Made by a program: the position numbers and the translations under genes | The notes under the pieces: model-generated | Told to the model about the DNA's origin: nothing | Database searches by the model: none | Seen by the model: the letters and a program-made list of their open reading frames with translations, nothing else | DNA from: Saxibacter everestensis | Lineage (GTDB): Bacteria; Actinomycetota; Actinomycetes; Actinomycetales; Brevibacteriaceae | Length of the DNA: 64,000 bases | Direction of reading: 5' to 3' | Assembly: GCF_025787225.1 (NCBI RefSeq) | Contig: NZ_CP090958.1 | Location: 3,396,550 to 3,460,549, forward strand | Shown here: piece by piece, positions 50,442 to 52,056 of the stretch | Position numbering within the stretch: position 1 is the stretch's first letter | How the letters are laid out: every line of letters begins with the position of its first letter

Positions 50442-50470
50442 TTGACATCGCATTCGCCGCTGATCACACT
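50442..50470 (+). promoter_or_regulatory. Promoter of the thiosulfate leader/transporter transcript
   Basis: Consensus -35 TTGACA (50442-50447) with a 17-bp spacer to a weak -10 CACACT (50465-50470). A start near 50477 would leave about 25 nt before the leader GTG. Confidence 0.5.
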
Positions 50471-50501
50471 TGATGTTGGTCGAACTATTCAGGAGGTAAG
50501 C

Positions 50502-50594
50502 GTGCGACATCCACGGCACACTTCCCGTACCCTCCTGCTGTTCGCGCGTCATCATATCGACTTGATGCGCACCTGCACCGCAATCTGTCGGTAA
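50502..50594 (+). CDS. 30-codon leader peptide upstream of the thiosulfate transporter
   Basis: GTG at 50502 follows a perfect AGGAGG with a 5-nt spacer. The peptide ends with the block HHIDLMRTCTAICR. The pattern R/H-H-x-D-L-x-R-x(4-6)-C-R at the end of a very short peptide is one I remember from actinobacterial leader peptides placed before sulfur-uptake genes. Two Cys codons (25 and 29) fall at the end, where ribosome stalling during cysteine shortage could set which RNA hairpin forms. It is too short and Arg/His-rich to be a folded protein. About 140 nt separate it from the transporter. Confidence 0.8.
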   Translation: MRHPRHTSRTLLLFARHHIDLMRTCTAICR

Positions 50595-50734
50595 CTCCCT
50601 GACTCCGCGCGACTCTCGCGCCATCCGCGTCGCTGCGACGCATTCGCCAGCTCTACCAATTCCTCGCGTTTACCGCCACTGGACATCCAGCGGTCACCGC
50701 TGCCCGCTCCCAGATTTTAGACAAAGGCCATACC
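50595..50734 (+). promoter_or_regulatory. Putative attenuator hairpins between leader and thiosulfate transporter
   Basis: The untranslated stretch can form GCGTCGC-T-GCGACGC (50627-50641), the stem CCACTGGACATCCAGCGG (50676-50693), and GCGCGA-CTC-TCGCGC at 50607-50621. No U-run typical of an intrinsic terminator follows. The transporter begins with TTG at 50735 after AAAGGCC. Confidence 0.5.
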
Positions 50735-51793
50735 TTGCTCATTTCAGGACTCATCGTCGGCACCGTACTAGGCTTCGTCCTTCAACGCGGTCGCTTTTGC
50801 GTAACCGGTGCTTTCCGCGACCTGTGGACCACCCGGAATTCCCGTTGGTTCACCGCGTTCCTCGTTATCGTCGCCGTGCACAGCGTGGGACTCTTCGCCT
50901 TGCAGGCACTGGGTGTCATCACCCTGGAAGCCGAGGCGTTCCCCTGGCTGGCGACAATCGTCGGCGGCTTCATCTTCGGTTTCGCAATCATCCTTGCCGG
51001 CGGCTGCGCCACGGGGACCTACTACCGCGCCGGTGAAGGCCTGGTCGGCAGCTGGTTCGCCCTGATCATGTACGCGCTGTTCTCCGCAATCATGAAGACA
51101 GGGCCGCTGTCCGGATTCAACACATCGATGCGCGGCATAACCATCGACGCCAGCACAATTTACGGTTCGCTGGGCATTTCGCCGTGGGTGCTCGTCGCCG
51201 TTCTGGTCGTAGCGGTCGGACTGGCTGTGCGGCACCACCTGAGCAAGCCAAAGGTCAAGATCGCCACACTGCCGGCGTCCAAGTCGGGCTTGGCGCATGT
51301 GCTCTTCGAGAAGCCGTGGGGAGCCTTCGGAACCGCCGCCATCATCGGCGTCATCGCGACCGTGGCCTGGCCGCTCAGCGCGGCGACAGGTCGCAACGAT
51401 GGCCTGGGAATTACGACGCCGTCATCGAAGCTCGTATCGTTCCTGGTCACCGGCGATCCGGAACTTGTCGATTGGGGCGTACTGCTCGTCGTCGGGATCC
51501 TGCTTGGATCGTTCATCGCGGCAAAGGGCAGCGGCGAATTCCGGATCCGGGTTCCAGACGCCACCACAATCATCAAGAGCATCGGCGGGGGCGCGCTGAT
51601 GGGAATCGGCGCCGCGCTGGCCGGAGGCTGCACGATCGGTAACGCGATGGTTCAGACGGCACAGTTCAGCTTCCAGGGCTGGACGGCGCTCGGCTTCATG
51701 ATTCTCGGCACGGGAGTCGCTGCGAAGCTGACCCTGATGCGCAAGCGTCCGGCGTCCACTCCGACCTCCTCCACCTCGGGCGTCTCGGTCTGA
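50735..51793 (+). CDS. tsuA: YeeE/YedE-type thiosulfate transporter (TsuA)
   Basis: 352 residues, about nine membrane helices. Cys22 (RGRFCVTGA), Cys91 (AGGCATGTYYRAGEG) and Cys299 (AGGCTIGNA) occupy the places of the cysteines that relay thiosulfate in characterised TsuA/YeeE proteins. TTG start at 50735. The next gene, tusA, encodes the cytoplasmic partner (TsuB/TusA). Supplies sulfur for cysteine synthesis; a cysteine-rich leader peptide precedes it. Confidence 0.88.
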   Translation: MLISGLIVGTVLGFVLQRGRFCVTGAFRDLWTTRNSRWFTAFLVIVAVHSVGLFALQALGVITLEAEAFPWLATIVGGFIFGFAIILAGGCATGTYYRAGEGLVGSWFALIMYALFSAIMKTGPLSGFNTSMRGITIDASTIYGSLGISPWVLVAVLVVAVGLAVRHHLSKPKVKIATLPASKSGLAHVLFEKPWGAFGTAAIIGVIATVAWPLSAATGRNDGLGITTPSSKLVSFLVTGDPELVDWGVLLVVGILLGSFIAAKGSGEFRIRVPDATTIIKSIGGGALMGIGAALAGGCTIGNAMVQTAQFSFQGWTALGFMILGTGVAAKLTLMRKRPASTPTSSTSGVSV

Positions 51794-51831: not shown

Positions 51832-52056
51832 ATGCAGGTAAAGCTCGAGACCGACGGCCAGGTCTGCCCATTTCCGCTGATCGAGGCCAAGTCTGCGATT
51901 GACGACCTCGCGATCGGCGATGAACTCGTGATCAACTTCGATTGCACACAGGCCACCGAGGCCATTCCGCGCTGGGCGGCCGAAAGCGGCTACCCGGTGA
52001 CCAACTTCGCCAAGGCCGGCGATGCCTCCTGGACGATCACGGTCCAGAAGCAGTAG
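51832..52056 (+). CDS. tusA: TusA-family sulfurtransferase (TsuB-like)
   Basis: 74 residues with the family motif CPFPL, its active cysteine being Cys12. AAGGA precedes the ATG. It accepts or relays sulfane sulfur; adjacent to YeeE-type transporters it is the usual partner in thiosulfate use. 38 nt after tsuA, same transcript expected. Confidence 0.9.
   Translation: MQVKLETDGQVCPFPLIEAKSAIDDLAIGDELVINFDCTQATEAIPRWAAESGYPVTNFAKAGDASWTITVQKQ

Follow-up and report, generated by a model that had tools for sequence, protein, structure and literature searches.

What does a frame of 30 codons do immediately ahead of a pair of thiosulfate import genes? The window analysed here, a stretch of 64,000 nucleotides from Saxibacter everestensis, contains such a frame on the same strand as a transporter gene, tsuA, which begins 140 nt past its end. 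The answer I favour, at a probability of about three in four, is that the frame encodes a cis-acting, cysteine-responsive leader peptide for tsuAB, and that a ribosome stalling at one UGU codon when Cys-tRNA is scarce would turn tsuAB on. Thiosulfate uptake would then stand under the same kind of cysteine-sensing leader as other actinobacterial sulfur genes.

The locus

The features on which the argument draws are as follows.

50442-50447, plus strand: TTGACA, candidate -35 element, without a convincing -10 partner
50491-50496, plus strand: AGGAGG, Shine-Dalgarno sequence of the leader, pairing in the predicted fold with CCUCCUG inside the leader frame
50502-50594, plus strand: leader peptide frame, MRHPRHTSRTLLLFARHHIDLMRTCTAICR followed by stop, with a GTG start; assigned from matches to NF042936 and NF042934, the score against its own profile, and related tsuA leaders
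50547-50570, plus strand: R-H-H-I-D-L-M-R, the conserved RxxHxDLxR block (Arg16 to Arg23), compared with 162 family members
50574-50576, plus strand: Cys25 codon TGC, at +5 from Asp20, common to the other three tsuA leaders
50586-50588, plus strand: Cys29 codon TGT, at +9 from Asp20; the family-invariant UGU (155/155, and 4/4 tsuA leaders) and proposed sensor codon
50595-50734, plus strand: untranslated spacer of 140 nt with two short GC hairpins and without a U-tract (C 59, G 29); possible Rho-loading region
50720-50737, plus strand: ACAAAGG ribosome-binding site and TTG start of tsuA, read from the sequence
50735-51793, plus strand: tsuA, thiosulfate importer (TsuA/YeeE, PF04143), from Pfam and NCBIfam models
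51832-52056, plus strand: tsuB, TusA-like sulfurtransferase (TsuB/YeeD), from Pfam and NCBIfam models

A preliminary description of this DNA had pointed to a perfect AGGAGG before a 30-codon frame with a Cys-containing end, and reading the sequence confirms it: the frame opens with GTG at 50502 and closes with TAA at 50592-50594, 5 nt separate AGGAGG from GTG, and the C-terminal end, HHIDLMRTCTAICR, contains both Cys codons. These two codons have three others between them and form no Cys run of the kind seen in mycobacterial polycysteine leaders. The consensus -35 named in the same description is present as TTGACA, but a consensus scan found no sigma-70-type promoter near the leader and no acceptable -10 to go with it. 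Because the Shine-Dalgarno sequence, as CAGGAGG (50490-50496), is complementary to CCUCCUG (50538-50544) within the leader's own frame, initiation of the leader may itself be controlled.

The genes downstream are the thiosulfate transporter and TusA-like partner that had been proposed, with TsuA/YeeE and TsuB/YeeD models matching the two products. The tsuA product matches Sulf_transp (PF04143) at 358.8 bits, with TsuA/YeeE as its closest models, and its TTG start at 50735 falls at the residue where homologues have ATG. In the published system, YeeD works with YeeE to take up thiosulfate (PMC11073785). In the TsuA tree the window protein groups with Arthrobacter sequences (support 98/97), away from those of its own family; its identity to Arthrobacter TsuA is 78%, and to TsuA of its own family about 67%. 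From this placement the history of the window tsuA would appear to involve transfer or loss, and the grouping suggests either horizontal transfer or hidden paralogy.

Homology of the leader

That the frame belongs with HxDLxR/Cys leaders found before actinobacterial sulfur genes had been suggested at the outset, and both model matches and the family survey bear this out. The best-scoring known family is NF042936 (Ms4527A family Cys-rich leader) at 21.4 bits, under the curated cut-off of 45, followed by NF042934 (putative leader peptide) at 18.4 bits, or 16.8 in the genome search, under the curated cut-off of 27; with both scores below their cut-offs, the window leader is a relative of these families rather than a member of either as they are cut. 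A full profile of the other leaders, from which the window leader had been left out, gave it 18.0 bits, and on a reversed background of 0.9 Mb in six frames the maximum for that profile was 8.7 bits. With a profile lacking the terminal Cys it ranks second in the 4.05-Mb genome (E = 0.088), and the next match has E = 1.66. It also shares the traits of the wider HxDLxR/UGU family, namely a short ORF with RxxHxDLxR scoring above background, UGU at +9 and a sulfur gene downstream on the same strand. Judged from these comparisons of sequence, the leader is real and is homologous, though divergent, to the actinobacterial leaders that NF042934 and NF042936 describe.

Conservation ahead of tsuA

All 42 TsuA-bearing genomes of the source family were examined, and the scan as a whole covered 85 TsuA loci together with their upstream sequence. 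Four of the 42 genomes (the source genome, G010, G020 and G040), which span two genera, have a leader of this subfamily signature ahead of tsuA, and it is absent from 38 of the 42 tsuA loci of the family. The preliminary description had staked its reading on conservation in relatives, and the leader is indeed kept before tsuA in G010 (MFRLHLFSRRVIDLMYVCTSSCRA), G020 (MFRLHLFSRRVIDLMYVCTCGCCS) and G040 (MAAKRNVLFSRRAVDFMYICTSSC). A pairing unique to the source genome, as a regular-expression scan had it, was ruled out when the profile scan found these three. Each of the four leaders has a Shine-Dalgarno sequence, and all of them have LF[AS]R, with Met at +2, Cys-Thr at +5/+6 and Cys at +9, a combination that sets them apart from the consensus of the family.

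In the three relatives the leader lies 193 to 316 nt from tsuA. Between G010 and G020, 68 of the 75 nucleotides of the leader ORF are identical (91%), as are 22 of 25 in its Shine-Dalgarno region, whereas the spacers share 69% identity, no better than the 67.5% of shuffled sequence, which argues that selection acts on the leader. The leader half and the spacer half of the region may evolve separately.

Other tsuA loci are preceded by other things. The upstream regions of Arthrobacter tsuA (L069 and L070, the closest relatives) contain no HxDLxR leader. Close to the tsuA promoter or short 5' region, most of the leader-less loci of the source family (L013-L036) share a conserved ATTGTTGAGCAAAAT element, a candidate operator, whose TGTTGAGC core resembles the leader-end repeat noted below among L132-L139, L141, L144 and L148. 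Cutibacterium tsuA (L072-L074, L129) has an unrelated poly-Cys leader, MMMCSMCR(Q/R/C)CC followed by stop, about 150-165 nt upstream, and in the three sequences read UGU is its predominant Cys codon.

One cysteine codon is UGU throughout the family

NF042934-type leaders occur in 110 of the 148 sampled genomes of the class, and the family sample comprised 175 leaders, 162 of them distinct, from about 50 genera. They precede genes for rhodanese/CysA2, DUF4395 proteins, sulfite reductase, CysM, APS kinase and sulfatases, as well as flavin-dependent monooxygenases, MetQ-type transporters, symporters and peptide-type binding proteins; the names of most of these downstream genes come from their sequences, and those of a few from a model. 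The first 106 leaders to be anchored all have Asp, and nearly all have Leu (+1), Arg (-4) and Arg (+3), a constancy that is partly ascertained since Asp and its neighbours belong to the search model. Synonymous codons are used at the invariant Arg, Asp and Leu of this set, which points to selection on the peptide at these residues.

The two Cys codons near the stop, on which the preliminary description had remarked, are both present, but the constraint falls on one codon, the UGU at 50586-50588, at a fixed distance from Asp. Counting from the Asp of HxDLxR, Cys is kept at +9 in 155 of the 162 distinct leaders, and its codon is TGT in all 155 and TGC in none, counts that are not independent events because the leader sequences are related, although the rule spans about 50 genera. 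The seven distinct exceptions have TGA (two), TAG (the source genome's second leader), GGG (two), AGC and ATG. Cys codons in the downstream genes number 267 TGC and 30 TGT (10% UGU), and the other Cys codons of the same leaders 183 TGC and 51 TGT (22% UGU). At +2 the Cys codon is TGC in 74 of 76 leaders, and where Cys stands at both +8 and +9 (15 leaders) the former is TGC in 14 and the latter TGT in every one. All four tsuA leaders, those of the window, G010, G020 and G040, have TGT at +9.

Two other sources of this pattern were ruled out. A second set, collected with a profile that ends before +9, has 64 TGT, no TGC, two GGG and one TGA at that position, which shows that the rule does not arise from the search and that UGU is no artefact of the search model. 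Neither does it reflect a general preference for a slow codon, the other Cys positions of the same peptides being mostly UGC. What is new, then, is that a single Cys codon, standing a set number of codons beyond the conserved peptide block, is invariably UGU, even though these genomes encode most of their Cys with UGC; its fixed position suggests where the ribosome stops. The rule was not found in the literature searched, and since this did not cover Canestrari et al. (2020) its novelty is provisional.

A proposed mechanism and its competitors

Translation of the leader, stalling, cysteine as the signal and a route from the stall to tsuA are inferred as follows. A ribosome would load at AGGAGG and translate the leader until it reached the UGU for Cys29, at which point RxxHxDLxR would occupy the stretch roughly 6 to 13 residues behind the peptidyl-transferase centre. 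Numbered from the P-site residue as 1, while UGU occupies the A site, Arg+3, Leu+1, Asp and His would be 6, 8, 9 and 11 residues back. This is the zone in which arrest peptides usually contact the tunnel, and the depth of the HxDLxR residues favours stalling at UGU with help from the nascent chain. If Cys-tRNA were scarce the ribosome would stall there, tsuAB would be expressed, and imported thiosulfate would restore cysteine; if it were plentiful the ribosome would finish at UAA and tsuAB would stay low. The only tRNA-Cys among those tRNAs of the genome that were read has anticodon GCA, which reads UGU through a G-U wobble, and UGU is thus the wobble-read codon here.

In mycobacteria, Cys leaders are reported to be cysteine-responsive (Canestrari 2020, as cited in PMC13236596 and PMC9094748), and such leaders were foreshadowed in PMC4633059 and PMC1262725. 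With experimental support for the mycobacterial homologues and sulfur genes downstream, cysteine-responsive attenuation, as first proposed for this locus, is the best explanation; the part of that proposal that found no support was the hairpins as its switch. Weighing against the explanation are a peptide with just two Cys codons and scores under both curated cut-offs, the many tsuA loci of the family that lack the leader, a tsuA ribosome-binding site whose predicted accessibility no ribosome placement alters, a C-rich spacer that is not conserved, and the few members of the leader family with a stop codon or another residue at +9. A stronger version, which I hold tentatively and put a little short of an even chance, takes the actinobacterial HxDLxR leaders to be nascent-chain-assisted arrest peptides that stall only at UGU, not at UGC, with the block held at a fixed tunnel depth, so that sensing cysteine would take both the peptide and the codon, the tsuA leaders extending this device to thiosulfate import.

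The competitor that survives best has the same signal and output, and differs in the roles of the peptide and of UGU. Under plain counting of Cys codons, on the trp pattern, the ribosome would stall at whichever Cys codon lies near the stop, and the peptide sequence would be incidental. Such counting suits Cys codons that lie close to the stop, the existence of poly-Cys versions within the family and the unrelated poly-Cys leader before Cutibacterium tsuA, but it does not predict that RxxHxDLxR is conserved while synonymous codons vary, that the UGU rule is confined to one position with the +2 Cys so consistently UGC, or that Asp and UGU keep a constant spacing, and I consider it unlikely. The UGU rule names a single base and a single peptide block, so that Cys-codon counters and arrest peptides can be tested against each other directly.

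Less likely again is a signal other than charged Cys-tRNA, with the peptide sensing a sulfur metabolite or UGU being decoded slowly through a sulfur-dependent tRNA modification (e.g. ms2i6A37). Conserved residues at what would be the typical tunnel distance of arrest peptides, the wobble reading of UGU by the one tRNA-Cys found, with anticodon GCA, and the stop codon at +9 in some members would all fit; however, 155 of 162 leaders retain Cys itself at +9, and the mycobacterial relatives respond to cysteine limitation according to the literature cited above. That the ORF serves only for ribosome loading or re-initiation at tsuA, with no sensory role, is improbable: genes often have a leader gene a short way upstream (PMC4833913), but 140 nt here, and 193 to 316 nt in the relatives, is too far for simple coupling, and both peptide and codon are conserved. 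Chance resemblance to the motif is scarcely credible, for although the scores fall under both curated cut-offs and the genome-wide E alone is only 0.04 to 0.09, the perfect Shine-Dalgarno sequence, the correct strand and place and the UGU at +9 speak against it, and it is contradicted by the related leaders that precede tsuA in three other genomes.

Possible routes from a proposed stall to tsuA

A ribosome stalled at UGU could act on tsuA in one of two ways, by shielding the transcript against Rho-dependent termination within the C-rich spacer or by exposing the tsuA ribosome-binding site. The spacer is possibly a Rho-loading RNA, being C-rich and G-poor like such RNA; its excess of C over G ranks at the 99.8th percentile within the window. 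The corresponding percentiles are 93 in G020, 95 in G010 and 44 in G040; C-richness is not conserved, and Rho acting through a C-rich spacer was rejected as a conserved feature, striking in the window and absent in G040. Ribosome-dependent opening of the tsuA ribosome-binding site had no effect to show in RNAfold, where the predicted accessibility of the site in the window was unchanged with a ribosome placed anywhere on the leader. In G040 alone the site is predicted to pair with the leader end, with a probability of about 0.5.

An intrinsic terminator/antiterminator attenuator was ruled out, the terminator scan having found no terminator-like site between leader and tsuA, where the longest T-run is the TTTT at 50715. 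The hairpins noted in the preliminary description do exist, but as a switch they are unsupported: besides the missing terminator and the unaltered ribosome-binding site, the 146-nt stretch that contains them folds no better than shuffled sequence (z = -0.91). An Rfam scan of the region returned nothing above the gathering score, with a weak cobalamin match inside tsuA.

Comparison with known systems

TnaC, from the tna operon of E. coli, is an arrest peptide that works with Rho and takes free tryptophan as its signal. The window leader is possibly alike in having a peptide in the tunnel and a stalled ribosome guarding the transcript against Rho, but its peptide is another one and its proposed signal is Cys-tRNA, not free tryptophan. 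NF042934, an actinobacterial model of type cis_reg_atten, shares with it R-x-x-H-[VI]-D-L-x-R, a UGU Cys at +9 and a short ORF before a sulfur gene; the window leader differs in having Met at +2 and Cys at +5, and in scoring 18.4 bits against a 27-bit cut-off. Its target, tsuAB, was not seen among the other leaders examined.

The NF042936 leaders and the mycobacterial polycysteine attenuators (Canestrari et al. 2020, as represented in papers citing it) likewise have terminal Cys codons in a short ORF before sulfur genes. Unlike them as so described, the window leader has no poly-Cys run, has a perfect Shine-Dalgarno sequence before its GTG and is probably not leaderless, and is not predicted to have a fold that sequesters a ribosome-binding site. 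The candidate cys-operon leaders of Mycobacterium and Propionibacterium acnes (Seliverstov 2005, PMC1262725) also have Cys near the stop and no conserved terminator, and Seliverstov et al. suggest Rho for the mycobacterial ones, noting that motifs are not conserved. They belong to different operons, and the passages covered mention no conserved UGU position. The uORFC-8-2 upstream of cysS in Rhodobacterales (PMC8632094) is similarly a Cys-codon uORF with proposed ribosome stalling, but it has tandem Cys codons, mostly UGC, an intrinsic terminator and no reported HxDLxR; with UGC dominant there, UGU is not general to cysteine leaders.

Variant leaders in the family

Several members of the family depart from the common form. 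The source genome has a second leader, at L008:2450-2540 (G000:C1:1411981-1412034), which ends in LLVRRLHVDLARVASAN before its stop, has no Cys and carries TAG at the UGU position. It precedes a dicarboxylate/amino-acid:cation symporter, and leaders with the Cys UGU stand before similar symporters elsewhere (L062, L171, L208). In L149 and L280 TGA falls exactly at the UGU position and the peptide ends just before it; these variants may be losses, or a form that pauses at termination.

The leaders of L132-L139, L141, L144 and L148 read WRR[LI]HIDLK..TSSNC before the stop and precede a peptide-type substrate-binding protein. Their last codons and stop read AATTGTTGAGC, and in L132 and L133 an inverted repeat, AATTGTTGA...TCAACAATT, is present. 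Those of L142, L143 and L147, WRRLHIDLMR[VF]TTV[IL]C followed by stop, precede a MetQ-type methionine ABC transporter operon.
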